Part shown: positions 1 through 41,491 of the stretch, piece after piece
Numbering within the stretch: position 1 is the first letter of the stretch
How the letters are laid out: each line of letters starts with the position of its first letter
Assembly: GCA_030407315.1 (NCBI GenBank)
Contig: JALQPE010002323.1
Location: forward strand, 1 to 64,000
Origin: Asparagopsis taxiformis
Lineage: Eukaryota; Rhodophyta; Florideophyceae; Bonnemaisoniales; Bonnemaisoniaceae
Direction of reading: 5' to 3'
DNA length: 64,000 nt
The notes under the pieces: generated by a model
What the model was told of the DNA's origin: nothing
Databases searched by the model: none
What the model saw: the letters and a program-made list of their open reading frames with translations, nothing else
Translations under genes and position numbers: made by a program

Positions 1-1
1 G

Positions 2-1955: not shown

Positions 1956-2243
1956 GCTTACAGATGATGCAGTTTCGCTGGGGTGCTGACAGCAAAGTCA
2001 TCGTTACGATGACTTTGCTGTAATGATTTGATTTCTTACAGCAAAGTCATCGTAACGATGACTTTGCTGTAAGAAATCAAATCATTACAGCGGCCACAAT
2101 TTTTTACCGGGTAAAAAATTCTTGCTGATTTTTTTACCCGGTAAAATTTTCTCACCACTGTAATCAAACCTTTCCTTACAGCAAAGTCATCGTAACGATG
2201 ACTTTGCTGTAAGCATCCCGGGTAAACGGCTTCGGCTGTAAGC
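1956..2243. repeat. Palindrome array FB1
   Basis: Foldback, MITE-like array. It starts GCTTACAG and ends CTGTAAGC. It holds three copies of a 33-bp palindrome at 1989-2021, 2038-2070 and 2178-2210: arm ACAGCAAAGTCATCGT, one central base (T or A), then the reverse-complement arm. Two copies of a second odd-centred palindrome TTTACC-S-GGTAAA lie near 2098-2120 and 2134-2157. The middle copy extends into a perfect 75-bp palindrome (2017-2091, centre 2054). Confidence 0.95.
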
Positions 2244-2782: not shown

Positions 2783-3106
2783 GCTTACAGATGGAGCAGT
2801 TTACCAGGGATGCTTACAGCAAAGTCATCGTTACGATGACTTTGCTGTAAGGAAAGGTTTCATTACAGTGGCCATGATTTCTTTACCCGGTAAAAAAATT
2901 CCTGGCCGCTGTAATGAAAACGTTTTCTTACAGCAAAGTCATCGTAACGATGACTTTGCTGTCAGGAAACAAAACATTACAGTGGCCATGATTTCTTTAC
3001 CCGGTAAAAAAATTCCTGGCCTCTGTAATGAAACGTTTCCTTACAGCAAAGTCATCGTAACGATGGCTTTGCTGTAAGGATCCTTGGTAAACTGCCTGAG
3101 CTGTAA
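2783..3106. repeat. Palindrome array FB2
   Basis: Same design as FB1. 33-bp palindromes at 2816-2848, 2930-2962 and 3043-3075 (the last has one substitution in its right arm), alternating with TTTACC-S-GGTAAA hairpins near 2876-2900 and 2990-3012. Those are nested inside longer arms TTACAGTGGCCA.../...TGGCCNCTGTAA. Spacers such as GAAAACGTTTTC are themselves palindromic. The left edge (GGCTTACAGATG...) matches that of FB1 in direct orientation. Confidence 0.95.
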
Positions 3107-3311
3107 TTGTCGTACAACGAAAAGTGATGTGGAAGGTTCGGATTGGTCAACCGCTGAATATCATTACCAGGGTGTATACTAATAGGAATATGTCAGATCT
3201 CTAAGTTTCGCCTATCTTACTCAGCTTACGCAGCAAAACAGCTTGTCGTTCAGATCTTCTTCTCTCTTTCTCAATCTTTCACTCTTCGTTTGTCAATCAC
3301 TCACCAAAGCA

Positions 3312-6300
3312 ATGGCTCAACAATCCCCCAACGCTTTCGACCGCCAGGTGCGCTCTGCCAGCCGCCGTGACAACGATTCTCCCACTCCTTCTCCCTCTCC
3401 TTCTCCCTCTCCTTCTCCTTCTCTGGCCCCCCCTGTCCCCATGGACGTTTGCGAAGCTGCTGCAGCGCTGACCCAGCTCAGCCCAGCACCTAAGCCCGTC
3501 CCCTCCCCCCCTTCCGCTTCCGATCCCGCGGTTGTCCCGACAATCGACGCTGGCGTTCCCGCAACTCCGCTTCCGGCTCAATCTGCCGAAGCGGCGCCAG
3601 CCGTCGAGGGATCTGGTGCTCCTCTGCCCAGCTCGCCTGCTCCGGACATGATCATCGCGTCCGGCAGCGACTTGGCAGAGGATGCGGAGAAGGTCGATGA
3701 TCACAACGCTCGTGACATCGTACCGAACAAGCCTCTCCGCAGCACCAGGCTGGCCTACCCTGGCACAGTGCCCATCCCGGTGGATGTGGACTACGACATA
3801 AGTCCGGAGAGCTGCCGAAACATTCCAGTCTTCATTTCCCCCCTGGATGTTTCTCCTCCGGCAGTCGTGTCCAGGGTGGTCAGGCCGCATCGCGTTGATG
3901 AGTTGAAGAAAACGTTTCTCACTCAGGGATTTTCCGTGATTGCTTCACGCGTGTCCGTCTGCGAGGTGATTGATTCCAATGCAAAAGTACGACTGCAATA
4001 TGTCGATGGATCTCACCGAGTGACCGCGTTGAAGGCCATTCTCGAGTCGGCTGGACCTGCTCCTGCGAAGGACAGTCCAGAGTGGGAGGAGTTTGTCAAG
4101 TCTGACATCTACCGTCGCTTTGGAACTATTCCAGTCGACTTTCTCCTCCCACCGACTCGGCTTGGCCGGGATGTCTTCTGCTCCGAAGAAGTACTCCCGC
4201 TTTCACGGCTGATGAACTTCCACACCCACAATGTCAGCGAGGTAACAGTTGCTGACAATGTGTGCTCTGTGATGGAGTTCATCAATATCCACCGCCTGGG
4301 AAAGAAGAAGATCGAGCCGACCGTTCAATACATAAAAGAACGGAAAGCGCTGAGCTGGATTCGTCCGAGACAGCTCATGCGCTACGTCTCGATCGCGCGA
4401 GGGTTCAAGACCATTGAAAGCCCTGCTTTCAAGTACTGGTCGAGCATCCCGAACAGGCCGGAGTTCGTGCAGTTCTCTTCGACCGAGGATCTGGCTGGTT
4501 GTACGGTGAACTTGTTGTTCAATGGGTCGTTCAGGAGTGCTCCGGATGTGCAGAAGTGTTTCATCCTGGAGATGACGGCGCGCTACACTTGTAGCCGTCG
4601 GTCGGCCGGGCTGAAACCGTACTCGGTTGGTACCATTGGGCAGGAATGGATTGCTGGTTTGTTGGAAATCTTCGGGTACGTGAAGGAGGTGGCCGAGTAC
4701 TGGAACGTGTCGGATGTGTTGAGGATGCTGGATGGGTCAATTCCCAGCGTGGGTGACCCGAGCAAGAGCTTCGACATTCGCTCGCGCGTTGTCGAAGTTC
4801 TTGCTCAGATGGTCCCCAAGAAGGGGTGCTGGGCAGACTTCCGTCCCAAGGAAGGCCCCCCCGATGGTTACAGTTACGAAAATATTTTTCCCCGTAAGAA
4901 GTCTGTCTTCGGGAAGGACGCCAGGAAAATGCTCCTGCGCGTCACTGGGTACCGCGACATGCAAATGCGGAAACGCTTTCACGCGATGTACCCAGACATC
5001 CCACATGCTGCGCTCCCAGCCACATGTGGTGATGATGCCCCCATCCCTTCCTCTTCCAATTCCTTGCCCATCCCTTCATCCTCCATTCCTTTGCCCCCAC
5101 CACCTCAACTGGAATCTTCCAGCAATTCCGAGGTTGCCCCTGTTCCTGTCTCTACCCCTGCCGTGTCTGCATCCTCCCCTGCGGTGACCCCGGTCAAGCC
5201 GACTGCGCGTGGTCCCCAGGATGGCAGCGAACGCTCTGGTCCAGTTTCCCACGCCGGGACTGGTACCCCCAACCGTCCTGTCCAAGCCGCGCAGGAGCAG
5301 GTCTCACCGGCTTCGCAGCCTGAGCCTGCGACTCCGGCTGCCGAGCAGCACCCTGCTGCTCCGGCCCCCGCTGTCGAAGCTTCCCGTTCTGCATCTGCTA
5401 GCAGTTCGGGAAGCTCCAGCGATGACAGCTTCGTCCCTTCACCATCCGGTGGGGTTGGACAGAAGACGGTTGCGAGGATTTCGACGGAGGGCCCTACTCC
5501 CGAGAATGTGGTCGAGGGCAGCAGTGCGAAGGGCGGTGCAGATCCTGACGAAGATGTCATTGAAGTCAGTGATTCTGCACCGCCCGGAGTGGAAACTTCT
5601 GGGAGGAAAGTGATGCCCAGAAGGAGTACCCGCCTGCAAGCGAGTCGTTCCGGTCGTGGTGGAACGGCGGGTGGTGCTGTGGAGGTCGTCGAGCTGGAGA
5701 GCGCCCCCGAGGATGCGGGTGAAAACTCCATCCTCGGGAAGCGTAACTTGGAAGCCGCTTCTGCGACGCCCGAGCCTTCTACCAAAAAGAGAAGGCTCGG
5801 TGAGACTTCATCAAAGTCGTCGTCAAAGAAATCCAAGTCGGCTTCCCGAGGTCGCTCTCGGGAGCCGGTTCTCCAGTTCGACGACGCCCAGGAGAATCCC
5901 ATTCCCGACAGCATCGTCGATGAGAATGTGGCCGCCGTTCTCCCCAGCGCAATTGCGTCTGGCAGCCGGATGAAGTACTATATGGAAAGTACGACGGTGG
6001 AGACGGTTCGGGCGGAAATGAGGGCGGCAGCATTCCAGGCAGCTGCATCGCCGGGTGCTGAGGATACGGTGGTGGACAGGTACTTTGCGGTGAAGAAGGC
6101 ATTGTTGGAAAACTTGGGGGTTATTGTTATGGAAGGCCTGTTGGCATCGTCCACGGCTGGTAATGCGACGCATGAGTTGTTCGGTCACTTCGCTAGGCAG
6201 TTCCCGCTGGTTGAGGAGGTTGAAAAACCCTCCCAGCAGTCTGATTCTAACGATGACGACAGGGAGCCACAGGACGAGCCGCCAGCTTTCGCAAAGCCCG

Positions 6301-6959
6301 GCTTCGATCCTTCGCCGTGGCAGTTCATCCACAACGTGGGTGATGCGAAGGACCGCATCGATGGTGGTCGTGGGCGCCTCTCTCTGCCGCGGCGTGAGTT
6401 GTGCGACAAGTTGGAGGAGGGGAATTTGGAGATGTATAAGAACAAGTTGGTGGCAGAGCTTGCTCTTGGTGTTTGTGCGGAGTTCTTGAAGTTGGGAATG
6501 GAGGGTGAGGATCCTGTCTTCTTCCCGAAGACAGGATTGCGGCTGCTTCTTACAGCAGATGGGGCTGCGGACCAGGATGGGCACACGGACTTCAAGGTAG
6601 CGACGAATAGTGTTGGAAGTCCTACCACGTCTCCATCATATTTCATGATGTCGAGCGGAGCCGATGGGTTCTCTATAGTAGTTGCCCCTTATAGTCATGT
6701 ATGCCTGGCCAGTCCGGGCGCCGATATGTGGAAGGTTCCCCCTCTCATCTTTTGGGTGCCACCCTATTCCGTATTGGTTGGTCGCGGTGACCTTTACCAT
6801 TACGGGGTCGGCTTCAGCCGAGGAGATCTTCCTGCAGGCGAGAAGTTAGTCTATGGCCTGCCCACGCGCGGCCACATCTACTTGAAGACGGAGAAGGACG
6901 TCCTCACGGACCACATCCACACCGTCGAATATTACAAGTACGATAGGAGCAATAGATAG
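3312..6959 (+). CDS. ParB-like domain fused to dioxygenase-like domain
   Basis: 1,215 residues, single exon. The ATG at 3312 is chosen because the frame upstream has no earlier ATG. Order: a Pro/Ser-rich low-complexity N-terminus; a ParB/sulfiredoxin-like module at about residues 180-245 containing YVDGSHRVTALKA (DGSHR at about 232), the counterpart of the ParB/Srx phosphate-binding loop; a helical region to about 570; a long Ser/Pro/Ala linker with an NLS-like TKKRRLG near 824; and a C-terminal 2OG-Fe(II)-like domain with HTD (H1091, D1093), LYHYGVGF (H1163) and R1186. It is a clear paralogue of the 2-1735 gene over its last 330 residues. Palindrome arrays sit on both sides. Inferred role: DNA- or chromatin-directed oxidation; substrate unknown. 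I see no helix-turn-helix of true ParB. The Pro/Ser tracts argue for an expressed eukaryotic protein, not a bacterial import. Confidence 0.85.
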   Translation: MAQQSPNAFDRQVRSASRRDNDSPTPSPSPSPSPSPSLAPPVPMDVCEAAAALTQLSPAPKPVPSPPSASDPAVVPTIDAGVPATPLPAQSAEAAPAVEGSGAPLPSSPAPDMIIASGSDLAEDAEKVDDHNARDIVPNKPLRSTRLAYPGTVPIPVDVDYDISPESCRNIPVFISPLDVSPPAVVSRVVRPHRVDELKKTFLTQGFSVIASRVSVCEVIDSNAKVRLQYVDGSHRVTALKAILESAGPAPAKDSPEWEEFVKSDIYRRFGTIPVDFLLPPTRLGRDVFCSEEVLPLSRLMNFHTHNVSEVTVADNVCSVMEFINIHRLGKKKIEPTVQYIKERKALSWIRPRQLMRYVSIARGFKTIESPAFKYWSSIPNRPEFVQFSSTEDLAGCTVNLLFNGSFRSAPDVQKCFILEMTARYTCSRRSAGLKPYSVGTIGQEWIAGLLEIFGYVKEVAEYWNVSDVLRMLDGSIPSVGDPSKSFDIRSRVVEVLAQMVPKKGCWADFRPKEGPPDGYSYENIFPRKKSVFGKDARKMLLRVTGYRDMQMRKRFHAMYPDIPHAALPATCGDDAPIPSSSNSLPIPSSSIPLPPPPQLESSSNSEVAPVPVSTPAVSASSPAVTPVKPTARGPQDGSERSGPVSHAGTGTPNRPVQAAQEQVSPASQPEPATPAAEQHPAAPAPAVEASRSASASSSGSSSDDSFVPSPSGGVGQKTVARISTEGPTPENVVEGSSAKGGADPDEDVIEVSDSAPPGVETSGRKVMPRRSTRLQASRSGRGGTAGGAVEVVELESAPEDAGENSILGKRNLEAASATPEPSTKKRRLGETSSKSSSKKSKSASRGRSREPVLQFDDAQENPIPDSIVDENVAAVLPSAIASGSRMKYYMESTTVETVRAEMRAAAFQAAASPGAEDTVVDRYFAVKKALLENLGVIVMEGLLASSTAGNATHELFGHFARQFPLVEEVEKPSQQSDSNDDDREPQDEPPAFAKPGFDPSPWQFIHNVGDAKDRIDGGRGRLSLPRRELCDKLEEGNLEMYKNKLVAELALGVCAEFLKLGMEGEDPVFFPKTGLRLLLTADGAADQDGHTDFKVATNSVGSPTTSPSYFMMSSGADGFSIVVAPYSHVCLASPGADMWKVPPLIFWVPPYSVLVGRGDLYHYGVGFSRGDLPAGEKLVYGLPTRGHIYLKTEKDVLTDHIHTVEYYKYDRSNR

Positions 6960-7433
6960 CATATCAGAAGTATTAAAACCTATACTACTGTTCCCTGCTA
7001 TAAAGTTCTGTCTTTCTCATCTCAACATTGTTACCTTAGCCCATTTTTCAGTTCTCATCTATACATCTGTCCTTCATCTCATAGTTTAGTGCTACTCAGC
7101 AGATTGCTTGCTACTTTTTAATATTAGTCTACAACGTTATATGATTTTACTAGCTAGGCCGTAGGGGGAGACTAGTTTCAACCCTTGACAACGCGCAGAT
7201 TTCGACTACGAGAGCCGTCACTGTGATAAATTATTTGTAGAATTTTCGTCTATCTTCCCACCTACACTAGGCTACCTATATATATACAGGGTATAACCTG
7301 AACAGAGACCACGTGAGGTAAAATACTCCTGAGAGCTGCTCACAGCCGTACAGACCTTTGCTGAGCAATTTACCCGACTTCAAACTTCGCTTCTTACCTT
7401 TACCAGGATGAGAGAAGGACGAAACTCCCTGCT
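6960..7433. other. 3' flank of ParB-dioxygenase gene
   Basis: No gene seen. AT-rich just after the stop, with a short TATATATATA run near 7278. Bases 7380-7433 (exact edges uncertain) resemble the sequence left of FB4 (ACTTCG...GAAGGACGAAACTCCC), i.e. a second copy of that flank. Confidence 0.5.
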
Positions 7434-7784
7434 GCTTACAGCCGAAGCCGTTTACCAGGGTTCCTTACAGCAAAGTCATCGTAACGATGACTTTGCTGTA
7501 AGGAACCGTTTCCTTGCAGTGGCCGAAGAATTTTTTACCGGGTAAAAAATCAGCAAGAAATTTTACCGGGTAAAAAATTGTGGCCGCTGTAATGTTTTGC
7601 TTTCTTACAGCAAAGTCATCGTTACGATGACTTTGCTGTAAGAAAACGTTTCATTACAGCGGCCACAATTTTTTTACCCGGTAAAGAAATCATGGCTGCT
7701 GTAATGATTTGTTTTCTTACAGCAAAGTCATCGTAACGATGACTTTGCTGTCAGCACCCCGCCGGAACTGCCAAAGCTGTAAGC
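7434..7784. repeat. Palindrome array FB3
   Basis: 33-bp palindromes at 7467-7499, 7607-7639 and 7719-7751, alternating with TTTACC-S-GGTAAA hairpins near 7531-7550, 7558-7580 and 7667-7690. Left edge GCTTACAGCCGAAGCCG; right edge ...CTGTAAGC. Bases from about 7500 to 7757 are almost identical to 8493-8750 in FB4, so one array was copied recently. Confidence 0.95.
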
Positions 7785-8239
7785 AGTCTGGCTTCACCCT
7801 CTCCCCCATTTCTCTACTCCGCCTTCAGCATCCCAGCCTCTCTGGTGACGACTGACGCCTTTCGTTTCCCCCCTCACGCCCCCTCTCGCAATGAAATACT
7901 CGTCTATTACCACGATAGGCTACTCGTACTGCCGCCTTAATTTTCCTCTACACACACCCTCCCATCCGTCTCTTCCGTACTACGATCTTAGGCTATCCTA
8001 CCTTACGATTATAGTTGTATAGTGAGTAGCTAGAGTCCTACTTATTGACGACTATAGTGCACCGGAACCGGCGCCGGTTCCCGCCCGGGCGGGTTGAATA
8101 TATATTTTATGCCGTGAGGCACAGGTACCATATGGTCGCTGTGGCTCACGGCACAAGGAGTAGATTTTGCGACCAACAGCCGTCCAAACCATCCTCCCGT
8201 GATGTTCCCTACTTCACACTTCGCTTCTCATGTGAGACA
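7785..8239. other. Spacer between FB3 and FB4
   Basis: No gene seen. Bases 8110-8143 contain an imperfect inverted repeat (GCCGTGAGGCACAG.../...GTGGCTCACGGC). Bases about 8170-8232 are the reverse-complement partner of 2281-2340. Confidence 0.6.
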
Positions 8240-8313
8240 GCAGGGAGTTTCGTCCTTCTCCCATCTTGGTAAAGGTACCTTTACCAAGAAGGGAGAAGGA
8301 CGAAACTCCCTGC
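8240..8313. repeat. 74-bp near-perfect palindrome
   Basis: Left arm begins GCAGGGAGTTTCGTCCTTCT and the right arm ends with its complement; the centre is GGTAAAGGTACCTTTACC. It abuts FB4. Its right arm also occurs singly before FB3 (about 7413-7435) and, inverted, after FB1 (about 2249-2270). Confidence 0.9.
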
Positions 8314-8314
8314 T

Positions 8315-8775
8315 GCTTACAGCTGAAGCCGTTTACCAGGGTTCCTTACAGCAAAGTCATCGTTACGATGACTTTGCTGTAAGAAAACAAATCATTACAG
8401 CAGCCACGATTTCTTTACCGGGTAAAAAAATTGTGGCCGCTGTAATGAAACGTTTTCTTACAGCAAAGTCATCGTAACGATGACTTTGCTGTAAGGAACC
8501 GTTTCCTTGCAGTGGCCAAAGAATTTTTTACCGGGTAAAAAATCAGCAAGAAATTTTACCGGGTAAAAAATTGTGGCCGCTGTAATGTTTTGCTTTCTTA
8601 CAGCAAAGTCATCGTTACGATGACTTTGCTGTAAGAAAACGTTTCATTACAGCGGCCACAATTTTTTTACCCGGTAAAGAAATCATGGCTGCTGTAATGA
8701 TTTGTTTTCTTACAGCAAAGTCATCGTAACGATGACTTTGCTGTCAGCATCCCCGGTAAACGGCCCGCACTGTAA
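8315..8775. repeat. Palindrome array FB4
   Basis: Four 33-bp palindromes at 8348-8380, 8460-8492, 8600-8632 and 8712-8744, with TTTACC-S-GGTAAA hairpins near 8409-8432, 8524-8543, 8551-8573 and 8660-8683. The right outer edge reads GCTGTCAGCATCCCC, the complement of the GGGTGCTGACAGC at the left outer edge of FB1. FB1 and FB4 could therefore be the outer ends of one unit. Confidence 0.95.
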
Positions 8776-9051
8776 TGGGGTGACTGCTTCTCCTACATCG
8801 CTCTGTTACTGGTGTTCTACATGCTGCGTTGCTACACAATTTCGCACTCACATCTTTCTAGTTTCTCTCCCTTTCGTATCCATAGGTATAGCAGTTGAAA
8901 AGTGGATAGTTTGCACTCCAGGCCGCAGATGCCTTCCTGCAGTCATGTCACGATTGTTGTAGTGTAGTCTATAATATCTAGCGCTCTTGGAAGATGATGC
9001 ACAGTCTATTGTCTCTGTCAATGCGTGTTTACTCAAATCTATCAAAGTAGC

Positions 9052-12000
9052 TCAGTTAGCTGGCCAATATTTTCTACCATAGTCAGCAAATATCTCCTCA
9101 TCAGCTTCAACGTCTCTGGTCAGAACGACCTTGACAGCATGGGGATTCTTGATATTCGAAGCAAAGTCCGGTTTGTCTATGGCATCGCCTTGTCGAAACT
9201 CGGCTGACTGTGTTCGACTCACCTCGGTCGCTTTCTCCGTTCCGTCAATGACCCGACAATCATTGAGGTAGCTGGTACAATTATAGACCGCTGGAACGAG
9301 CCAGACCTTCCGAACAGGTGCACCCCTCCCTATGTACGTGGTTTCCAATTCCATGTTGTAGTCCTGGAACCTCTGTCCTGTGCACCCAAATCCTTCCGGG
9401 CCGTACATCACTGATCTCTGCGGTTCCGAGTCTCGAATCTTCGCATAGAAAATCGTCCCGTTGTACCAGCCAATGACCGTCCCCTTCTTCAGTTTCTTCG
9501 CCGCGAATACGCCAAACCCACCACCTCTTACCTCCGATTGCGAAACATAGACACCGTAGAATGCGGCATCAGCAGCCAGAATCGCGTCCGGGTCTATGCT
9601 CCAAAACGAGTGCATGTCCTCGGCCGGCCACTGGTCCATAGGCACCCCGCTCAATCTGTGAAGCATAGAACCGTCCTTCTTCATTGACGCAACGAACACA
9701 AGCAGATGGTTCGGCAATGCTGTCACAGCAGGTAAACCTTCTGGTGCATCTGAGATGTGCTTCTGACGAAGCCTTGGAGCTTTTCCTGTGACCGGTACCG
9801 ACTCGTCCCCAAGAATACTCTCCACCTCACGCTGCAAGATCCCCCCATATCGCCCGGCTTTCACCTCACTGACGAAAGCATGCAGTATCCACTCCTGCGA
9901 TGCATCGTGGCACCTTTTTTCCTTCTCACACCCAATGAACCGACGATACGTACCATCCCTCAACGTCATACACGCTATGGCTGTGCTGTATGTTCCCGAG
10001 AAGAAATCCATCACGATATCGTTCTGCTTCGAAAATCGTTCCAGAAGCTCACGAAGAGTGGTCAACGCCTTCTGCTCATGGCGCAGTCGGTTGTTCTGCC
10101 CATCGTATTGAGCTTCACCAGCCGACAACCTCGGAACGTTGTCAATCGCGTTGGTGAACCCAGGGTGCCTCGATATGTCCGGATTGTGCAACCTGTAATC
10201 CACCATATCGTATGCAGCCATACCCTTCCCCCGCTTATACGCATGGATAACGAAATCGTGCATATTATGCAGTGTGCACGTTTTCGTCGATGGATTGGAC
10301 GTAAAGCTGTGTGGTCGGCGAGATAGCACGACTGGAACACTGTCCACAATCATCTTGCCAGGCTCGGCATTTCTGATTGCATCCATCCATGCCACGAGTT
10401 GGCGCACGCTGGAATAGATTAGAGCATGACCGCCAGGCCGAAGAACTCGAACTATTTCACACGCAACACTCGCCAACTCTTCCGGCTCCAGAATATCGTA
10501 CTCCGAGTTTTCTCTGCCGCCTTCCCGCCTCGTGTTGAATGGAGGATCAGTGAGCACAAGCTGAACACTGTCCTCCAACACGCCATCTTCCAGGAAACTA
10601 ATTTTGTCCTCCACCTCTTTGGCTACATCAGTGGCGTCACAATTCACAGTGTGAATGTAACGCCCCATCACAGCTTCCAGCTTGGTGACATATTCCGGCT
10701 TGGATTCCTTTCCGACGTCAACGAGCGGTGCTTCTGTAGGCGATACAGTGTCAACCTCCATAGCGTCATCCTCGGCCGCACCTTCTCTTGTTGCTGTTTC
10801 GCTAGCAACCGCCGCATTATCGTCCTCTCCACCACCGCGCTCCAGCCTAGCCTTCTTCCTCTGTGGCTCCAGACTATCCTCTTCTATATCCTCGCTGCCA
10901 TTGTTTGGCACTGCTGCGGATATTTCCATCTGCGCAGGTGCACCTTCAAGGATGCCAGGCTCGGGCGTATCCTCAAGACTGTGCAACTCATCCATGGTCA
11001 GAGGAAGCTTTCGTTGCTCTCGGGTTCGCAATAACCAAGCCTTCAGCCTCCTCTGACCATCCAGGGCATGAGACGTGTTCAACTTGGCTCGCATGAACGA
11101 GTTCAATCCGAACTTGTCAGGAGTGTCGAAAAGCAAGGCTCGAAGTCTCTGCATCAGCTGACCACGCTCGGCGAACACATTCACCTCAGTGACACATTGG
11201 CGTATCGACAGCAGGAAGGCGCTTGTCAATGATCGCAGCCTTGCATCCACAGCCACTGGAAGGTCGGCACAGAACCCGTTTTCACTGTCTACAGTTTTCG
11301 GGACAATGGTCAGGTTTTTCCGATGCTCCTCGACCGCGCAGCCATCAGACCGATTCGGGAGTGACCTGAAGCAAAGGCTCGCAGGATCGAATACCATGAA
11401 CGGCCAGCACATCGATTCAACATCCTCATACCCCAACACTCTTGCCCCGGTATCCCACGCAGCTAACACACGGTCGACAACAAATCCAAGCTGGTTGGCT
11501 TGCGCACTGGATGTTGCAATTCCAACCATTCCACCACCACCAATGGCCCCGGATGTGGCTCTGGCCCGCCTAGATGGCGCACTGCCCATCTCCTTACTGC
11601 GAATAGCCAAGATACACTGGCACATCATAACCATCAGCCTCCTGAACCGCTTCTGGCTAGCCTGCAAAGAATCTTGCATGTCGGATGTAGCGCCGTCTAG
11701 AAAGTACCTGCTCGAAAGCAGTTCGCGGTTCAGTGGAGAGGACAATTCTCCGCGGGGTGTCTTGCCAAACATTTCGACGGCACGAGAACTAGTCACCCCC
11801 ACCTGTTTCGGAAACTCAACCATCCTCGGAGAATCACCCATCTCTGCATTGAGTCCCCATGCATGACAAAACATTTGCCACAGACGCAAATCAATCGCAC
11901 TCGAATCTTCTGCTCGGTGATACGGCCGAAGCACAGCCAGGATAGACATGCATGAGCTGTACTGCGGTTTACCACTCAGGCTTGAAGCAATTTGGCCGCT

Positions 12001-12519
12001 TGGATCGCAGGACTTGATCCAGCCCAACACATCGGCCATCCTCACAGACGAAATATGAGCGTACTTGTCCTTTCCTTTTTGGACCCAGTACTCGTCTCTG
12101 AGATCAACGGCGATCATCAGATACTCAACAAACATCATGCGCCTTTGCAGGCCTGCAATGTCGTTGGATGTCGTCGCTCTCACACGGTCCAGCACAACAG
12201 CAGTACTGCTGTTGGTGTCCGCCACGATAGACTCTTCTCGCATAGGAATCGTAACGCCAGGAGGAAAGACGCCCTTCTCCATTCCACGTACAATTGCCAT
12301 GCAGCGGTGCGCTCCATCCAATATCTCCAGAACGCCTTCTCGAAACCTGCCAGTCACGGGATGAGCTGTGTCATAACCGCTGTTGCGAATGCTCTCCATG
12401 AGCGCTTCCACATGACTTGCATCAACATCGCGAATCGATACGAATTTGCTGACTTGATTGGGGTCGATGAACACCCATCCGTCGTGCTTTTCACCGTGAT
12501 TGTGGAACGTTCCTTCCAT
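9052..12519 (-). CDS. ParB-like / DNA methyltransferase / SET fusion
   Basis: 1,155 residues; start ATG at 12519 (the frame extends only three codons further, to a TTG). Residues about 15-92 are a ParB/Srx-like module with LEILDGAHRCMAIV (DGAHR at 68-72). Residues 545-600 are an acidic linker with an NLS-like QRKKARLE. Residues about 615-890 are an amino-methyltransferase: TDPPFNTR (657-664), a substrate-specificity region, then RHEQK and DFFSGTYSTA (838-847). The order DPPF before the AdoMet FxG motif is that of beta-class N6-adenine/N4-cytosine enzymes. Residues about 985-1150 are a SET-like domain: RGGGFGVFA (998-1006), SYLND near 1083, NIKNPHAV near 1122 and a terminal ADYGRKYW. A single chain could mark DNA and a protein such as a histone; that is inference. 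Palindrome array FB4 lies just beyond its 3' end; 12520-13032 separates it from a divergent gene. Confidence 0.9.
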   Translation of the reverse strand: MEGTFHNHGEKHDGWVFIDPNQVSKFVSIRDVDASHVEALMESIRNSGYDTAHPVTGRFREGVLEILDGAHRCMAIVRGMEKGVFPPGVTIPMREESIVADTNSSTAVVLDRVRATTSNDIAGLQRRMMFVEYLMIAVDLRDEYWVQKGKDKYAHISSVRMADVLGWIKSCDPSGQIASSLSGKPQYSSCMSILAVLRPYHRAEDSSAIDLRLWQMFCHAWGLNAEMGDSPRMVEFPKQVGVTSSRAVEMFGKTPRGELSSPLNRELLSSRYFLDGATSDMQDSLQASQKRFRRLMVMMCQCILAIRSKEMGSAPSRRARATSGAIGGGGMVGIATSSAQANQLGFVVDRVLAAWDTGARVLGYEDVESMCWPFMVFDPASLCFRSLPNRSDGCAVEEHRKNLTIVPKTVDSENGFCADLPVAVDARLRSLTSAFLLSIRQCVTEVNVFAERGQLMQRLRALLFDTPDKFGLNSFMRAKLNTSHALDGQRRLKAWLLRTREQRKLPLTMDELHSLEDTPEPGILEGAPAQMEISAAVPNNGSEDIEEDSLEPQRKKARLERGGGEDDNAAVASETATREGAAEDDAMEVDTVSPTEAPLVDVGKESKPEYVTKLEAVMGRYIHTVNCDATDVAKEVEDKISFLEDGVLEDSVQLVLTDPPFNTRREGGRENSEYDILEPEELASVACEIVRVLRPGGHALIYSSVRQLVAWMDAIRNAEPGKMIVDSVPVVLSRRPHSFTSNPSTKTCTLHNMHDFVIHAYKRGKGMAAYDMVDYRLHNPDISRHPGFTNAIDNVPRLSAGEAQYDGQNNRLRHEQKALTTLRELLERFSKQNDIVMDFFSGTYSTAIACMTLRDGTYRRFIGCEKEKRCHDASQEWILHAFVSEVKAGRYGGILQREVESILGDESVPVTGKAPRLRQKHISDAPEGLPAVTALPNHLLVFVASMKKDGSMLHRLSGVPMDQWPAEDMHSFWSIDPDAILAADAAFYGVYVSQSEVRGGGFGVFAAKKLKKGTVIGWYNGTIFYAKIRDSEPQRSVMYGPEGFGCTGQRFQDYNMELETTYIGRGAPVRKVWLVPAVYNCTSYLNDCRVIDGTEKATEVSRTQSAEFRQGDAIDKPDFASNIKNPHAVKVVLTRDVEADEEIFADYGRKYWPAN

Positions 12520-13032
12520 GGCGAACAAAGGTAGAGTTTTTAAGAAAGGGATAGTTGGTTGCTGCTTGACCAGGGTGGCGCAAAGCAGAAGTTGGTTGTT
12601 TAAAACAAAGTGTCAGCGAGTGGTAGCACTTCGGTGGCTGTTTCCTTTCCACCCCTGTCCGAACCTTTACAAGATAACTACATCGACTGTTAGCTCAATA
12701 ATCAATGTAATACTAAAGTAATACTCAAAATATTTTTCCATGCAATTTATTGGGCCCCGTAACATCTCTAAGCGTATCTTTGTAGTCCAATCGTATGCAT
12801 CCGACATTCACTTCTAGAACGATTATTCACATCAAATTTTATGCTGCAATCAGTTCATGGCAGACATCATCCACACTGACGTGTCAATTTTGTCAATTGT
12901 CCATTCTATTTCTACACCACCTAAACATCTCTTCTGGACCTTTCCAATCCTCCTAGTATATACTACTCTTTAGCAGAAGGTAACGGTTAGGCTTTCACTA
13001 ATACAACAATTCTATCCCATAGCTATCCCAAC
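12520..13032. promoter_or_regulatory. Shared upstream region of two divergent genes
   Basis: 513 bp between the start of the methyltransferase/SET gene (minus) and the 13033 gene (plus). AT-rich, with no open frame and no repeat. Bases 12955-12969 (TAGTATATACTAC) include a TATATA box-like site 60-70 bp before the plus-strand ATG. A bidirectional promoter is inferred from position only. Confidence 0.4.
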
Positions 13033-14394
13033 ATGCTTCCTCTCGCTCCAAACGACGTTATAGAAGTTCAATGGGAACTTCGGCCGTTTGGGAGGAAACG
13101 AAAAATTGTGTGGTGGTCTGCAATCGTCAAGGAAATTACTCAGGTCAAGACCGAAACAGACCCATTCCTCCATGCATTGCTCGAATACAAAGCTGAATAT
13201 GGTTTCGACTCTACCCTTTCTCAAGTCAAGATTTCAGATCGTAACGAGCTCGTCGACAAGGATTCCGGAAGGGTTCTCCCGTGGCGAAGTGGTGAGCTTC
13301 GCAGTATGGACTCACCTGCATCCCCAGCAGAGAGAGACCCGGACTACGGCATTGACCACACTCGCCACCGCCACCGCGGCATCCTTCAAGATTGCACTGC
13401 GGATCAAATGAAGAAGACCATAGCAGAAATGCTGGCAAGATTGGAAAAGCTGGAGTCAGCTGCCAAACATCCTCTTCCCCCTCCATTCGATTCCAACAGC
13501 TCCATGACCTCCTCTGCTCTGACTGTATGTAGCATTCTGTTTCAGAAGCTTGGTGTGTACACGGACAAGCCCCTCTCCCTCCGGATGACAAAATCCGAGC
13601 ACTCCAGGGGAATGCGACAAACATCGCAAGAAGAAATCAGAGTACAGGCTGACTGCTCCCTTGCTCAATTCCGCACTATTGCCATTCAATGCAAGGCGAA
13701 AGAGAATCGTGATGTTCTCTTCCTGCCGTCCTTTGAGGACATCACCTTTCCCTCTGGAAATGAGTCGGATCTTTCCATCATTTTCCCCACCTTTCAGGCA
13801 CTATGTGACTCCATAGGTACCTCGCAACACGGGTTCCAGAAAATATTGGTGAAGAGCAGGGCGGAACGCGATGGAGGCAGCTCATCGATTGTCCGAATTT
13901 TAGGAAATCTAGTCGACGTTGACTGCTCTCATGATGCTCCTTCTTCCGCATTTCTCGTCGGCTCATCTGCTTACGTCCTGTCCAGCCCAGACCAACGTAT
14001 GACAGTTCTTTGCAGAGACTCCTACGAGTTTGACCATGTCAACAATACATTTTTACATCCCCTATGTCTTAGCCAACTATCACAGTCTAGCATCGTGGAC
14101 TCTTTCCACCTACGTGATAAGGCTACTGTTACTTATGGAGCAACGTTTTCGTTACTGTGGAGACGTATTCAGCGCCGAGCTTGTTACAGCACTTTCCAGC
14201 CTCTATCAACCGCAGAGACGTTTGGTACACTACATCTACGCTTACCTTGCTGTATTTTCAGTGGTACTACTATATGCCAGGAGCTTGAAGACATTGGCTA
14301 TGAGGCTATCTCTCGTCTTGGCTTCAATGCGGATTCAGACACTACCCACCCACCCTCTCCTCCACCTGCCACCTGCAGTCCGGAGCAAAAATGA
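13033..14394 (+). CDS. Tudor/PWWP-like coiled-coil protein, function unknown
   Basis: 453 residues from the ATG at 13033. Residues about 5-75 (DVIEVQWEL, KIVWWSAIVKEI, LLEYKAEYGFD, KVKISDRNELVD-like stretch) have the strand-rich, aromatic pattern of a Tudor/PWWP/agenet-type barrel; this is a fold guess. Residues 122-145 (KKTIAEMLARLEKLESAAK) form a coiled coil. The remainder is a globular region I do not recognise, ending in a Pro-rich tail. It sits between the methyltransferase/SET gene (divergent) and a second coiled-coil gene (convergent). If the barrel is real it would suit a chromatin reader working with its neighbours. Gene status rests on the length of the frame and coherent composition. 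Confidence 0.7.
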   Translation: MLPLAPNDVIEVQWELRPFGRKRKIVWWSAIVKEITQVKTETDPFLHALLEYKAEYGFDSTLSQVKISDRNELVDKDSGRVLPWRSGELRSMDSPASPAERDPDYGIDHTRHRHRGILQDCTADQMKKTIAEMLARLEKLESAAKHPLPPPFDSNSSMTSSALTVCSILFQKLGVYTDKPLSLRMTKSEHSRGMRQTSQEEIRVQADCSLAQFRTIAIQCKAKENRDVLFLPSFEDITFPSGNESDLSIIFPTFQALCDSIGTSQHGFQKILVKSRAERDGGSSSIVRILGNLVDVDCSHDAPSSAFLVGSSAYVLSSPDQRMTVLCRDSYEFDHVNNTFLHPLCLSQLSQSSIVDSFHLRDKATVTYGATFSLLWRRIQRRACYSTFQPLSTAETFGTLHLRLPCCIFSGTTICQELEDIGYEAISRLGFNADSDTTHPPSPPPATCSPEQK

Positions 14395-14669
14395 TAAAGC
14401 ACACCTATCCGTAGTTATCCTGTTCCTGGGTATTCCATTCTAGAGCTCCTGTGGCCATCAATTTCTAGTAAAGACGGATACCCTCGCCCCTTCCTACTTC
14501 GACTATTCCACTACCTGTCTCTGCGCTGTTCCTTCGACTTGACACTATCGTCTGACTGGTTTCCTGATGTCTCGCACCTATCTACTTCCATCTATTACAA
14601 AATTCACCTCAACAGAAATTTTATTTCTTCATTCTTCGTCTACTACACCGAAACTGGTTTCATCCGATA

Positions 14670-16196
14670 CTACTCCCCTTCATTCTCGATTTCATCATCG
14701 ACGAATACCTTCACATATTCTGCATCTCCTCCGTCCTCTTCCATAGACCTGAAGCTCTCCTCCAGCACTGATTCCCCCCCATCGTCTACGTTCAGTTCTT
14801 CATATCTATCACGCGATATAGTCAAAACCTCCTCATTCATGAACCGACTACTCACCCGCTCCCCGGGAAGAAGCAGTTTCACTGCTTCATTGATTTCCCG
14901 GATTTGCGCTCCTTCCACCTCTGTTCCACTTTGAAATTTCAAAATCGTTCGGAACCCGTATGCAAGTATGTAGATGAATTGCAAGGAGTATTCTGAACGT
15001 CGCAGGAACATGTTCTTATCAGAACATTGCGTGTAGGCGACTGCAAAGTTCAGTGCAACCTCTACTAAATTGATCCTCCTAGTCAAAAACCTCTTGTCCG
15101 GTTCTCCAATTATTTGAACTTCGTACTCGACTTTGAATAGCATTTCTTTTCGCACTGCAATGAAGTCGCGAAGAATCTTCATATTCTTGTCATCCATTGC
15201 TGCACGCTCCGCTGCATTCATTTTCCTCTGCGCCGAGTACAGACTTGGAACTGACTCAATGTCCAGCCCACCGTCGTGCAAATGATGCTCCATTCGGACT
15301 GAACCTTGAAACCCACTGTATAGAACGAATCCAAGATCTCGGATGAACCGGTTTCGCACATGATCTCTGGACTTGTTCATAAACCCGGTCACTGCTGTGA
15401 GTGCCGATTTCGTCACAGTGATGCCTACCTCCTTTCTGTGCAACGGCCCATTGTCTCCAACCTTTCTTCGCTTCTGCTTTCGAGCGGCCCCATCACTTCC
15501 CTCGGACGTCCCATGCATTCCATCCATGCGAGCAGAGTCCGTTCCGCGAATTGTCTCCTCAATGGTCCCGGTAGTCACATACCCCCGCGCCCTCCACCGT
15601 TCGATACCTTCCGACGTTCCATTGGAGCTGGAACGGTCTCCTCCCTCTCTGAAAGAATTGTTTTGACACGTATTCTTGATTAAAGAGGTCACAACTTGGC
15701 AGCGCAATTCAATGTGGTTCCGGCCGGCAAGCGTCCTATTGAACACATCCTTTCGCTCATTGCTCTGCCTGGCGAACATCAGCGTATTGATTAGCTGGCA
15801 TCCGTTGAAATGCCTATCCCTCTTATCCACCATTGCCTTCGTGTACGTTGGAACAACAGCACACAGCACAGCACACACCATTTCGAACGTGAACGATTTC
15901 TCCGCATCCTGCGCAATGCGGAGACGTTCCCTGTCCTTCTCGGAGGCGATCTTCTTCGGATGTCCTTGTCCCTGGCTCAGAAGCCCATCGACGATGCTCT
16001 TGACCTCCTGCATATCGGTGTTTAGCATGGAGACAGTCTTGGCGACATTTCCGAGAGTCTCGCGTAATTGAATGGTGCTCTTCTCGACGGCATCCATTTT
16101 ATCACTCAGGGCTTTCAACTCTGCAGTGATGTTCGAAAAGCCCTCACGCGTTATTTCGGAAAATGCGGCGATGCTTACGGAGGTTTCGGGATTCAT
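14670..16196 (-). CDS. Coiled-coil nuclear protein, function unknown
   Basis: 508 residues from the ATG at 16196 (an 18-codon upstream extension begins only at a GTG). Residues about 15-75 are a heptad-rich coiled coil (ITAELKALSDKMDAVEK, LRETLGNVAKTVSML). Residues about 95-185 form a helical region with several Cys. KQKRRKVG at 240-247 looks like an NLS. Residues 265-460 are a further helical domain (FIRDLGFVLYSGFQG, RRINLVEVALNFAVAY), and the last 40 residues are acidic. No known family recognised. It converges with the 13033 gene across a 275-bp gap, and the ACAGTAAA palindrome array lies about 500 bp upstream of its start. Its neighbours suggest, but do not show, a role in the same system. 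Confidence 0.75.
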   Translation of the reverse strand: MNPETSVSIAAFSEITREGFSNITAELKALSDKMDAVEKSTIQLRETLGNVAKTVSMLNTDMQEVKSIVDGLLSQGQGHPKKIASEKDRERLRIAQDAEKSFTFEMVCAVLCAVVPTYTKAMVDKRDRHFNGCQLINTLMFARQSNERKDVFNRTLAGRNHIELRCQVVTSLIKNTCQNNSFREGGDRSSSNGTSEGIERWRARGYVTTGTIEETIRGTDSARMDGMHGTSEGSDGAARKQKRRKVGDNGPLHRKEVGITVTKSALTAVTGFMNKSRDHVRNRFIRDLGFVLYSGFQGSVRMEHHLHDGGLDIESVPSLYSAQRKMNAAERAAMDDKNMKILRDFIAVRKEMLFKVEYEVQIIGEPDKRFLTRRINLVEVALNFAVAYTQCSDKNMFLRRSEYSLQFIYILAYGFRTILKFQSGTEVEGAQIREINEAVKLLLPGERVSSRFMNEEVLTISRDRYEELNVDDGGESVLEESFRSMEEDGGDAEYVKVFVDDEIENEGE

Positions 16197-16717
16197 CTTG
16201 ACCTTGCAATTGGAGTTTGCTAAAAGGAGAATTGCTTTGAAGGATGTCACGCTTAGTACAGCAGTGTTGTAGCAAATATCATTTCAGTGGATGCATCCAT
16301 CCTGGTCTACTCTACATAATAATAATGCTTCCCAGTGCTCCGTAACGGTTATTTTTCATAATTTAGTGGTGGATGGTGCGTATTCTTTCCTTTGCCACCA
16401 CCCACGTCCTGTGCATACCACACCTCGCTACCAGACTGACGTCTCCTACTAGACACTTTCAATGCAAAGATAGATAGGTATAATTTGAAATGCTAAACTC
16501 AACATATTATAGCTACTATGTACATTCTCTCCTTACGGTGAGACAAACCAGATATGTTCTGTTCTCCCAATCTTCCTTTCTCCAACGTCCTATTCAGCAT
16601 CTAGCTTCCCCGCACCCAACTATCTGTAAAGCACCATCACAATTAATATAGTCGTATACCACACACCATTCCAATATTTACCTTCACACCAACACTATGC
16701 TCCATATTTCCTCTAAG
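16197..16717. other. Upstream flank of coiled-coil gene
   Basis: No gene or clear repeat seen; AT-rich sequence leading into the palindrome array. Confidence 0.4.
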
Positions 16718-17090
16718 TCCACTCCACCAGACAGTGTTGTCAAACAATGCACGGTACTACCCGCAGACAATACAATTTGCTATCTACACTACTGTCTACA
16801 GATTTCCCCAGACAGTGCAGTAATACAGTACAATGTATTGTCTCAGACAGTAAAATGTACTGTCTGCACATACTGTCTGGCGGCAACACTTCCGGACAGT
16901 AAAATTTACTGTTCTGGACAGTAAATTTTACTGTTTTTGGTACTGTCCAGATTTCGTGCCAGTTTACTGCTGCAGCAGTATTCTGAAATTTCCAGACAGT
17001 AAATTTTACTGTCTCCGCGCACTGTCTTGGCCAGACAGTAATTTTTACTGTCTCAGACAGTAAATTTACTGTCTGTTTTCATTCTCAACA
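16718..17090. repeat. Array of ACAGTAAA/TTTACTGT palindromes
   Basis: About fifteen copies of (G)ACAGT or ACTGT(C) arranged as short palindromes, best formed at 16895-17075, e.g. GACAGTAAATTTTACTGTC, with variant centres (AATT, TTTT, TG). The array is unlike FB1-FB4 in sequence but alike in design. It ends exactly where the decayed protease of gypsy element A breaks off. Confidence 0.85.
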
Positions 17091-17097
17091 CCGTAGT

Positions 17098-18309
17098 GTT
17101 ATTTTTAGTGCGCGTAGCAATCGTCGCGCCTTTCGGCAGCTCGCGGTCCTTCTTCGTGAAGTTAGATACGATAATAAGAGAAACGTCTCTTGGTCCTACG
17201 TCGACCACTCCGTTGGCTATACGAAGCCCATGCCGGAATTGCACCGACGCTTTCGGTTCGAGGAACACGAGTCAGGTCGCATCCGTCGTCACGTTGACGG
17301 TCCGTGCGACATCGCCGGTACACGCGTGTACTTCGTCAGGCGAACGAAAACGTTCGGCTTGGCCGATTCGAGGCCGCGTTACGCTCGCGGCGTTTTTCGG
17401 GTGTTCCACGTTTGGATTCGTCTCTTCCCCCTCCTCGTATGGAGTCGTCGTATCACCCTCCGCGATAATGGGTATCGTATCTCCTCGGTGGAGCTCGATC
17501 GTTTGCGCTCGACAGCGTATAGCATCGACATGCTTCGACATGAACGACGTGCCCATTATGACGGGGACAGCCAGCGTGTTGGCTACGAAGAATTTTACGC
17601 GGAACAGCGAGTTCCCCAGCCTGACACGAAGCAGGATGGCGCCTTCGATAGGCAAACGTCGCCCGTTGGCGTCTCCGAGCTTCGGTAGCTCTTCGTCACG
17701 TAGACAGCGGTCGACCCAGTCGTAGGGTAGTAAACTTGTTCGTATCAAGTTGTAGCCGCTGCACGTATCCATCGCGATGGTAATCGCCCTCATCACGTTG
17801 AGGTCTAGTCCGATCGTTCCGGATACGATATAATGCTTCGACGCAAGTAGGCACGTATGCCCGTCGAGGACCAACGGTTCGGTCCTGACCGGCGCGCGGT
17901 CTACGTCTTCGCTAGCGATTCGTCGCTTCACCGTATGGGCCCGTATGGCTTCTTTTGCGTCGACACGCTTCGTATAAGCCGCGTGCTTGGCTTTCTCGCG
18001 CTCGGAAGCGTCATGCTTCCGGGTAGCGCGTCTCGCTCGTCTGCGAGGCTTCCTCTTCGTGTGAGGTTCGTTTGTCCCGTCGGACTTCGTTTCTTCCCCC
18101 ACGTCGGGTGTCATGTGACTCGAGTTGGCCTTCGCGGCCGTGAGCTTTACGTAACTCTCGTTCATCGGTGAGCCTGCGGAGGACCAATCATCGACGTCGG
18201 TCGTCCCCCTTTCACGTAAGGGTTCAGGCGATGTGGGTGGCTCGTGACCTACATCGCCTGGTCGTTTTCCGGCGCGAGGCCGTTCGACACGTCGTCGTCG
18301 TGAGCCCAC
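17098..18309 (-). pseudogene. Element A retroviral-type aspartic protease, decayed
   Basis: The frame starts at 18309, overlapping the gag end by 61 bp in a different frame, as gag-pro pairs using frameshifting often do. A basic N-terminal half is followed by a retropepsin-like domain with AMDTCSGYN at residues 180-187. The catalytic DTG has become DTC, so activity is doubtful. A TGA at 17272-17274 stops the frame, yet matching sequence continues in the same frame to about 17098 (FLEPKASVQFRHGLRIANGV), corresponding to element B residues just before RT. Everything after is gone. Confidence 0.8.
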
Positions 18310-20651
18310 GAAGCTCGTTCGTCATCGTGACTCGTTTCCACCTCGAGTGGTGTTTCGTCAGCGGAGGTCGTCACGTAGACTCCGCTGCGGCCATTACGCC
18401 GGCCATTTCGTTCGTTCGCCCACGGGCGGGGGTCACGTCGGTCATTACGAAAGTCGCCGCGGCGCCTGTCGAAGGGCCTTCCCCCGTCACGATTGGGGTT
18501 TCGGAGTATCGTAGGCGGCGTGCCGTACCTCCGCGGGGTCACGTTCCCTCGCTCACCAGGTCGTTCCTGGTTACGTTTGGCCATTCGTTGGCGGAAGTAC
18601 TCAGCCTGACGTGGGTTGCTCTTCACGTGGAAGAGGTAGTACTTGTACGCAAAAAAGATCCGTTGATCTGGCGTCAGACGCGGACACGTGAACGTCGAGT
18701 GGCCATCTTCGCGGCATGACCAACACGACAGCGTCCAGTAATCATTCGGGATTACGGAGTGCGCCAATTGCGTCTGCTCGCTCGTGAGCTTCGGCACGTC
18801 CTCGCATGGACGGTTCAATCGAGCTTCGAGCTCGTCCGGCTTTTCGTTTGCCGTTTTCGTATCGTTGGGCGGCGGCCCGTTCGTAAAGAGTATCGCCTCT
18901 AGATTCTCGGCAACGTGAGCCGCAGCGAGCGATACGTCGTCATCGTCCCTCGCGGGGATGTTCGGGTTACCATCGTGGTAACTGGGCTCGCTAGCCCGTT
19001 CATTACGTAAGTACGCGGACTCATCGTAGTCCGCGAACTTCCTCGACTCGTGGCCGGAAATAGCCAACGTAGGCTTCACCGGAAACCGCACTTTCGGTTT
19101 CGCGGCTGACGCGACAGCTGCCGTACGTGCACGGAAGGTCGTTCCTTCGGCCGTCGCCAATCGTCTCACAACGGTGAGGTCGTTCCTCTCTCGTTCGGGG
19201 AGTGACCGGAGTCGTTCCGTCACGGCTGCCCGCGTCGAGGGCAGCAAACCACGCACGTAGTGGTGAACGAGGAGTCGGTCCGTAAACACGTAGTTGCACG
19301 CCCGCGTGGCGGTGTCGAGTCTATCAGCGTACTGATTCTCGTCCTCGTTAGGACTCTGCGTGATCATCGTGACCTTTTCGTAGGCCTCCTGCAGCACGTC
19401 GTCTTGCAGGTATCGTTTAATCAACGCGTTGATTACGTGAGGCCACGAGAACCTCTTCGTCGGATCAGTCGTGATCACGCCAGTCGTACACTGGGAATCG
19501 TAGAACCGTCGGGCGTCCCCTTCGAGGAAGAAGTGCAGCGCACGTACTGCCACTCCCTCGCACACTCCGAGTGTGCTGAACCCATCACGTATTTGGGCGA
19601 GGAATCCGAGCAACGTAATCGGATTCCGGCCGGAGAACGGCTTTAACGTAGGGAAAAGTCCCTCCAGCTCACGTTTGAGCTTATGTACGCTTTGACTCTC
19701 GTTCACGTAGAGATGTTCACGTACATCGTTAAGTCGGTACATGCGGTACGACACCACGTTCGCAAATGCGTCGAGCATTGTCGTGTGCTCTGCCAACGCG
19801 TGGCAAACGGGTCCGAGGGCGTTCCTTGGTAAGCGTACCGCGTCGGCACGTTCGTTTTCGTGGACTCGCGTGTCCGTCGTGCCGAACGTTCCCAGCCACG
19901 GAATGTACGTCTCACGTGGCGGGGGAGCTCTCGTATCGAATTGCGCAGCTCGTGCTGCGTCCGGCGACCGCGCGTGGTCTGGCGTATCGTTAAAACGCAA
20001 TTGCCTTCGTGGCGTCTCGTTGGGGCTGGCGATGGCTCGTTGCACTGTCGCCCCCCTTCCGTACGTGGTCGGGGTCGTCGGACCGGGTGTTGGTGGGTAT
20101 CCTCCCGGAACGGCCGGGGAGGATTGCGAGTTATAGGCGCGCGAGCCTTCGTAATTCGGATCGCTTCCGCTCGGCGGAGCGGAACGTCCGGCGACGATTT
20201 CGTTGAATACTACGACAAACGAGTCGAGTCTTCCCTCCACGGCGGAGAGGCGGTTTCGTAAATCTTCGTTTTCCCGTTCGAGGGTCGCTGAGCGTTCACG
20301 TAACGCACGAGCTTCGCACTCCGAGACTCCGAGTCTCTGCCTTACGGCTTCGTCGACGGCCGCGTCGCTCGCCCTTTCGATGTGACCTCGAAGGTCTTCG
20401 TACACTACGCGTAGTGCCGTGGGAGTCACGTTCCCTTCGTTGAGCTGACCGCGCGTTGCGGGGTCCATGCTCACGGACTCAAACGGGCTTACCGTACGTG
20501 GTAGCTGGCCGATCGCCTCGATATCCGGCGGGATAGATCGATCAGTCGCGAAGATCGCTTCTGCTGACAAGGCCACGTCGGCTTCGGCGTCCGCTGACGT
20601 TGGCAACGGTTGCCTGGGCGACGCGCTGGAATTCGACACAGCGTAATTCAT
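18249..20651 (-). CDS. gag: Element A Gag polyprotein
   Basis: 800 residues from the ATG at 20651. Residues 105-145 form a coiled coil; about 315-490 is a Ty3/gypsy capsid-like domain (LKPFSGRNPITLLGFLAQIRD, FLEGDARRFY, ENQYADRLD, VRGLLP). Residues 643-656 are a CCHC zinc knuckle (CWSCREDGHSTFTC), and an Arg/Asn-rich tail follows. It packages element RNA in the cytoplasmic particle. The frame is intact, unlike protease. It is homologous to the element B Gag over capsid and knuckle. Confidence 0.9.
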   Translation of the reverse strand: MNYAVSNSSASPRQPLPTSADAEADVALSAEAIFATDRSIPPDIEAIGQLPRTVSPFESVSMDPATRGQLNEGNVTPTALRVVYEDLRGHIERASDAAVDEAVRQRLGVSECEARALRERSATLERENEDLRNRLSAVEGRLDSFVVVFNEIVAGRSAPPSGSDPNYEGSRAYNSQSSPAVPGGYPPTPGPTTPTTYGRGATVQRAIASPNETPRRQLRFNDTPDHARSPDAARAAQFDTRAPPPRETYIPWLGTFGTTDTRVHENERADAVRLPRNALGPVCHALAEHTTMLDAFANVVSYRMYRLNDVREHLYVNESQSVHKLKRELEGLFPTLKPFSGRNPITLLGFLAQIRDGFSTLGVCEGVAVRALHFFLEGDARRFYDSQCTTGVITTDPTKRFSWPHVINALIKRYLQDDVLQEAYEKVTMITQSPNEDENQYADRLDTATRACNYVFTDRLLVHHYVRGLLPSTRAAVTERLRSLPERERNDLTVVRRLATAEGTTFRARTAAVASAAKPKVRFPVKPTLAISGHESRKFADYDESAYLRNERASEPSYHDGNPNIPARDDDDVSLAAAHVAENLEAILFTNGPPPNDTKTANEKPDELEARLNRPCEDVPKLTSEQTQLAHSVIPNDYWTLSCWSCREDGHSTFTCPRLTPDQRIFFAYKYYLFHVKSNPRQAEYFRQRMAKRNQERPGERGNVTPRRYGTPPTILRNPNRDGGRPFDRRRGDFRNDRRDPRPWANERNGRRNGRSGVYVTTSADETPLEVETSHDDERASWAHDDDVSNGLAPENDQAM

Positions 20652-41490: not shown

Positions 41491-41491
41491 G

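Follow-up and report, generated by a model that had tools for sequence, protein, structure and literature searches.

The giant DNA transposon Sola1-1_Ec32 of Ectocarpus carries an accessory protein that combines a ParB-like domain with an N4C/N6A methyltransferase, and ParB-methyltransferase accessory proteins have been reported for green and red algal transposons too; the same paper refers to red-algal EnSpm elements of giant size that bear accessory genes (PMC12477816). The EnSpm elements of the red alga Chondrus crispus measure 16-20 kb and contain 4-5 open reading frames (ORFs) (PMC6431247). TET/JBP genes are found on fungal EnSpm and Plavaka elements, both of which belong to the CMC group, and SET-bearing transposons are represented by HarbingerS and MuDR of Phytophthora, an oomycete (PMC12730594). 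In B. cereus an adenine methylase is joined to a ParB-like domain in one protein (PMC5512222). Algal transposons with a ParB-methyltransferase are therefore a known type. Here we describe a gene in the first 64,000 nucleotides of contig JALQPE010002323.1 of the red alga Asparagopsis taxiformis (the whole stretch analysed, hereafter the window), in which a ParB-like module, a methyltransferase and a SET domain are joined in one chain. The genome gave thirteen phycobilisome-linker matches over the cut-off, a family seen in Synechococcus alone among 14 control genomes, and these indicate a eukaryote with phycobilisomes, most likely a red alga. We consider it probable that the product is a three-module transposon accessory protein, encoded by an intact gene on a giant CACTA/EnSpm-like element that has amplified recently.

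A single frame with three predicted modules

The gene lies on the minus strand at 9052-12519 and consists of one intact frame from 12519 to 9055, encoding 1,155 amino acids (aa), with the stop codon at 9052-9054. A preliminary description of the window, drawn from its letters and ORFs, had claimed that a ParB-like module, a beta-class methyltransferase and a SET domain share one uninterrupted 1,155-residue frame, and in this it proved correct. The ParB/Srx-like domain occupies 12205-12492 (aa 10-105, with the motif DGAHR at aa 68-72), the beta-class amino-methyltransferase domain 9865-10599 (aa 641-885) and the SET domain 9076-9519 (aa 1001-1148), all on the minus strand.

A search of 5.8 billion proteins, from which 7,991 candidates were scored, returned four entries (P0002-P0005) related to the query (P0001). 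P0002 is 100% identical to the query; P0003 shows 43% identity across 99% of it, P0004 38% across 46% where it aligns best locally and 31% when aligned as a whole, and P0005, which has 742 aa and lacks the N-terminus, 31% across 45%. Widening the family search with the alignment recovered the query's own entry alone. None of 39 phage records spans 80% of the query at a single locus, and the phage matches listed (15 of the 39) all fall within the methyltransferase part. The order ParB-methyltransferase-SET is retained in the two distant relatives P0003 and P0004. Between P0001 and P0003 the identity is 40% in the ParB segment, 39% in the linker, 25% in the low-complexity segment, 57% in the methyltransferase, 39% in the middle segment and 55% in SET; the corresponding values against P0004 are 37%, 23%, 19%, 47%, 23% and 35%. 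The methyltransferase and SET segments are among the best kept in both comparisons, which suggests that both modules matter, and the ParB segment rises above background conservation against P0004 only.

Beta-class enzymes have a motif IV of the form [DNS]PP[YFW], placed before motif I, and the arrangement read in the preliminary description is indeed present: TDPPF at aa 657-661 precedes DFFSG at 838-842, and TDPP and Gly 842 are invariant among the four aligned sequences. In a Pfam profile search PF01555 matched the query with 60.9 bits against a curated cut-off of 26.7, covering 220 of 221 positions, and it is also over the cut-off in P0003, P0004 and P0005. The C-terminal SET core was borne out as well, with PF00856 (cut-off 22.4) scoring 27.6 bits in P0001, 25.3 in P0003 and 23.6 in P0004. 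PF01555 and PF00856 were the only families matched in the query, other Pfam families, including the chromodomain, being absent at E ≤ 1. The SET motifs GxG, GWYNG (YxG) and DYG are present in three of three aligned sequences, and we take their roles, including that of DYG in providing the catalytic tyrosine, to be the usual ones. The methyltransferase domain has the fold of its class, and the ParB/Srx-like domain that of its superfamily; the phrog_1033 profile gave values of 0.003, 6.2e-5 and 0.093 for three relatives. The DPPF form of motif IV would favour N6-adenine over N4-cytosine as the predicted target base.

The host element, its copies and its other genes

The gene sits as cargo in a CACTA/EnSpm-like DNA transposon present in many copies, a context that lay beyond the view of the preliminary description. 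The window's contig starts inside the element, so that positions 1-17098 hold its right-hand 17,098 bp, out of about 26.5 kb; a copy with both ends in the same genome (C632:34561-61071) measures 26,511 bp. The right terminal inverted repeat, CACTACGGTGTTGA, at 17085-17098 on the minus strand, is identical to the left end along 14 bp, and its 13-mer, searched with up to two mismatches, has a single site in the window, at this right end and with zero mismatches, where 1.16 sites would be expected by chance. The right end region (16001-17098) has AGACAGT/ACTGTCT as its subterminal repeat; the window contains 18 of these, 14 of them in the 16-18 kb bins, and the element's left end has 29 within about 950 bp. 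Inside the left end there is also a tandem array with 35-bp spacing (approximately L038:966-1530); the left ends of copies differ in length, perhaps for that reason.

Ten other copies match the window over long stretches at about 99.3-100%. Their right-hand match limit is mostly at 17098, give or take a few bases (one copy lies at a contig end), and their left limits vary, partly with the end of the compared stretch and, in C1577, where the copy abuts another element's end. Fourteen such right ends, counting the window's and leaving out the contig-end copy, have 13 distinct flanks between them. The genome contains 415 exact matches to a 33-mer taken from the DPPF region (reversed control 0). 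The protein is identical and free of stops in 40 of 40 scored copies, these being 40 of 3,826 candidates in the window's own 141.5-Mb assembly, and the coding DNA is identical to that of the window in eight of eight compared copies, from which the copies appear recent. We conclude that the element with this gene is real, intact and recently mobile. A left-end 24-mer has 887 exact matches and a right-end 19-mer, which covers two end variants, 762 (reversed-pattern controls 0); both counts are higher than that of the gene (415), which makes shortened or sister elements likely. Were every one of these gene copies part of a full element, the total would come to 11.0 Mb, or 7.8% of the assembly, which is an upper-end estimate. 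A right-end variant, CATTCCC in place of CATTCTC, and end pairs about 14-15 kb apart (C21, C117, C19, C101, C10) suggest a second, shorter element family.

A 31-bp palindrome recurs in the spacers that separate the genes for the transposase-like protein, two accessory proteins and the methyltransferase. Two intergenic arrays lie in the window, one of CAGCAAAGTCATCGTWACGATGACTTTGCTG units at 1990-3058 and the other at 7468-8743, between two convergent genes. Exact palindrome half-sites in the window are confined to 1990-8743, with 25 matches making up 12 whole sites and one half; stretch L037 adds ten half-sites (five whole), giving 17 whole sites for the two together, and the genome has 8,354 whole sites.

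From left to right, the element encodes a transposase-like protein, accessory proteins 1 and 2, the ParB-methyltransferase-SET protein on the opposite strand, and the ORFs at 13033-14394 and 14670-16250. The putative CMC-type transposase (1,267 aa) lies at the left, running from stretch L038 into L037. Of its relatives, 29 entries were recovered, its own included, and 23 were aligned. A CMC transposase is recognised by three acidic residues plus a C(2)C and an H(3-4)H motif ahead of the last Glu; D629, C648-x2-C651, D752-H753 and E940 are invariant in the 23 sequences and H915 and H943 nearly so, as candidate residues for such a site. Transposase_21 matched three of the 23 weakly (best 1.9e-4) and Plavaka three of the 23 (best 0.0073), which agrees with the CMC group. 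A KDZ transposase, our first guess, was dropped because the termini and these weak family matches favour CACTA/EnSpm.

Accessory protein 1, whose gene runs from stretch L037 into the sequence at the window's start and of which the window holds the C-terminal part at 77-1735 (plus strand), has 1,086 aa in copy C632, with a ParB-like start and a dioxygenase-like HxD..H..R end; accessory protein 2, at 3243-6959 (plus strand, 1,238 aa), likewise has a ParB-like N-terminus (DGSHR) and a dioxygenase-like HxD..H..R C-terminus. The N-termini of the methyltransferase family and of the dioxygenase-like proteins align over 69 columns (hhalign E 2e-6, probability 89%), a comparison of two three-sequence profiles, one of which includes the separate ORF at 36695-39799. 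His, Asp, His and Arg of the HxD, H, R pattern stand at conserved positions common to the three dioxygenase-like ends. The ORF at 13033-14394 (plus strand, 453 aa) has no family match, and that at 14670-16250 (minus strand, 526 aa) has an N-terminus that looks coiled-coil-like by eye and no family over the cut-off.

Outside the element, the ORF at 36695-39799 (plus strand) encodes a protein of 1,034 aa whose start is ParB-like (DGLHR) and whose end shows the dioxygenase-like HxD..H..R pattern. It is flanked by direct repeats at 34964-35263 and 40185-40484 that are 99% identical, possibly marking a second, different element. Two gypsy-type retrotransposons, with gag, protease, reverse transcriptase, RNase H and integrase pieces, lie at 17272-20651 (minus strand), adjoining the right end of the CACTA-like element, and at 21251-27056 (plus strand). 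The stretch 42473-43314 is a repeat that matches, at about 89.6%, the sequence beside element copy C1813. Two small proteins at 47204-47863 (plus strand) and 52700-53332 (minus strand), alike by eye, have signal-peptide-like starts, are rich in Cys and basic residues and gave no Pfam match. The GC skew is +0.37 at 40001-42000, against 0.07 and 0.00 in the adjacent bins.

Proposed role and alternatives

We tentatively propose that the protein serves in anti-silencing or in chromatin self-marking through both of its predicted activities, on DNA and on lysine; the activities, their targets and the benefit to the element are what we infer. The ParB-like module, which appears related to the N-terminus of the same element's two dioxygenase-like proteins, would bring the enzyme to element DNA, possibly at the palindrome arrays. 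The methyltransferase would then put an amino-methyl mark on that DNA, DPPF suggesting N6-methyladenine (6mA), and the SET module would place a lysine mark on the bound chromatin, with the outcome that host silencing may be countered or transposition regulated. The palindrome arrays could equally be terminators or structural repeats, instead of binding targets. Should it be active, a single protein of a transposon would link a DNA mark of bacterial type to a histone-type mark in a eukaryote, and since hundreds of near-identical copies should make the predicted marks easy to see in long reads, self-writing by a transposon is directly testable.

Several results weigh against the three-module, transposon-borne reading or parts of it. 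The Pfam ParB family was matched by neither the query nor its relatives in the profile search, and a sequence search of the PDB with the ParB-like profile returned nothing credible. Of the ParB/Srx loop that the preliminary description had seen in DGAHR, the fold assignment stands and a Pfam ParB match does not; of the profile search it had proposed as a check, the methyltransferase and SET matches were obtained and the ParB match was not. The hhalign link between the N-termini is subject to the small size of its profiles. The element's own transposase-like protein has no Pfam match (711-aa C-terminal part, E ≤ 1), nor does the near-identical P0006 at full length (E ≤ 0.5). None of the three dioxygenase-like ends matches any Pfam family at E ≤ 5, TET/JBP included, a PDB search with them gave nothing credible, and a structure model of the fold had a predicted local distance difference test (pLDDT) score of 33 and no usable fold; the dioxygenase label is accordingly an inference from the residue pattern. 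Of the 2-3-bp target-site duplication looked for in a CACTA/EnSpm element, the 3-bp form was present in none of 13 end pairs, and a 2-bp match was seen at three of the 13 against about 0.8 expected by chance, among pairs of which ten were picked by proximity alone and in an assembly that may cross-join identical 26-kb repeats. In an empty-site comparison at the window's right flank, beside the gypsy element, the nearest 12 flank bases were unaligned in the single copy compared. We use the label CACTA/EnSpm-like because a target-site duplication is not established.

The remaining adverse results concern the SET module. P0005, which also lacks the N-terminus, scores 17.1 bits, under the PF00856 cut-off, so that SET may be dispensable or P0005 a fragment. 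Canonical SET domains have an NHS middle motif, for which the three aligned sequences have [LI]ND, by our reading an apparent retention of Asn with His changed to Asp. We therefore word the activity as SET-like, the domain assignment itself resting on the profile cut-off. In the structure prediction that the preliminary description had also suggested, the methyltransferase took its class fold but the SET part was below pLDDT 50 throughout. The further suggestion that the chain could write on both DNA and histones is upheld for its three-domain basis and for the conservation of methyltransferase and SET, but with NHS replaced histone writing is a prediction.

The rival that survives best, though we think it rather unlikely, is that the protein marks DNA only, with an active ParB-like module and methyltransferase and a SET module that is a captured, decaying or structural passenger. 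It would account for the sub-threshold SET of P0005 and for [LI]ND, and it would fit the Ectocarpus relative (1,104 aa), which is described as ParB plus methyltransferase in a main text where 'SET domain' occurs 0 times (PMC12477816). However, the identity of SET between P0001 and P0003 is close to that of the methyltransferase and higher than in the linkers, and GxG, YxG and DYG are all retained in the sequences compared.

Regulation of transposition, which we judge unlikely, would have the enzyme methylate the element's own ends or palindrome arrays and thereby govern transposase binding or self-inhibition, in place of anti-silencing. Host Dam methylation regulates some bacterial transposons. 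The element is densely packed with palindrome arrays and subterminal repeats, all of the window's palindrome half-sites lie in it, and the gene shares one element with the transposase-like gene, as in copy C632; yet the SET module and the dioxygenase-like proteins would be left unexplained by this role. A further extension of our own proposal, quite unlikely in our estimate, is a write-and-erase kit, in which the ParB-like module on the DNA-plus-histone writer and on the two dioxygenase-like proteins would recognise the palindrome arrays in the manner of partition sites, and hundreds of copies would write and erase, on their own DNA and chromatin, a mark private to them.

A domesticated host epigenetic regulator lying by chance within repeats, to which an intact and conserved multi-domain frame might point, is very improbable given hundreds of exact core matches, differing flanks and a fixed position in an element whose two ends match. 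The ParB and beta-class methyltransferase types belong to bacteria or phages, but bacterial contamination or an assembly artefact is scarcely credible with gypsy retrotransposons on the same contig, copies on many contigs with different flanks, a SET domain in the protein, and none of 102 pattern matches in prokaryote genome contigs confirmed as relatives. We rejected both, together with a chance ORF, on copy number, varied flanks, conservation and the lack of a confirmed prokaryote relative.

Comparison with described systems

The preliminary description had named the bdelloid N4CMT as the nearest precedent. That enzyme has SPPY and a chromodomain reader; the Asparagopsis protein has DPPF, a SET module and a ParB-like domain, lies on a transposon and gave no chromodomain match, and the algal ParB-methyltransferase transposon proteins (PMC12477816) and the B. 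cereus ParB-methylase (PMC5512222) are closer to it. The latter likewise has a ParB-like domain and a methylase in one chain, but it is bacterial, its ParB domain is reported to nick, and 'SET domain' occurs 0 times in the text cited (PMC5512222). As in HarbingerS and MuDR, a transposon has captured a SET gene; those elements are of other superfamilies, and a DNA methyltransferase fusion is not mentioned in the passage cited on them (PMC12730594). We did not find a ParB-methyltransferase-SET fusion in the literature searched, which did not cover the red-algal Bostrychia work (Petroll et al. 2025), and we do not claim that it is unpublished.

With the TET/JBP-bearing fungal EnSpm, Plavaka and KDZ elements the Asparagopsis element shares CAC..GTG termini (those of the EnSpm families), a putative CMC-group transposase and predicted DNA-modifying accessory enzymes (PMC12730594), but here the dioxygenase-like ends have no Pfam match and belong to proteins with ParB-like N-termini, and a predicted DNA methyltransferase is present. 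With Chondrus crispus EnSpm it shares a red-algal host and an expanded CACTA form that holds several accessory ORFs (PMC6431247, PMC12477816), and it may be related to those families; compared by description only, it is longer, at about 26.5 kb against 16-20 kb. Like Sola1-1_Ec32, it is a giant DNA transposon that carries, on the strand opposite the transposase, a long (about 1.1 kaa) protein with a ParB-like domain and an amino-methyltransferase, but the Ectocarpus element is a Sola-1 element and is described without a SET domain in the main text (PMC12477816). As far as the literature searched extends, the Asparagopsis element adds three things to these systems: a fusion to SET, related ParB-like N-termini on the writer and the dioxygenase-like proteins, and the palindrome arrays.

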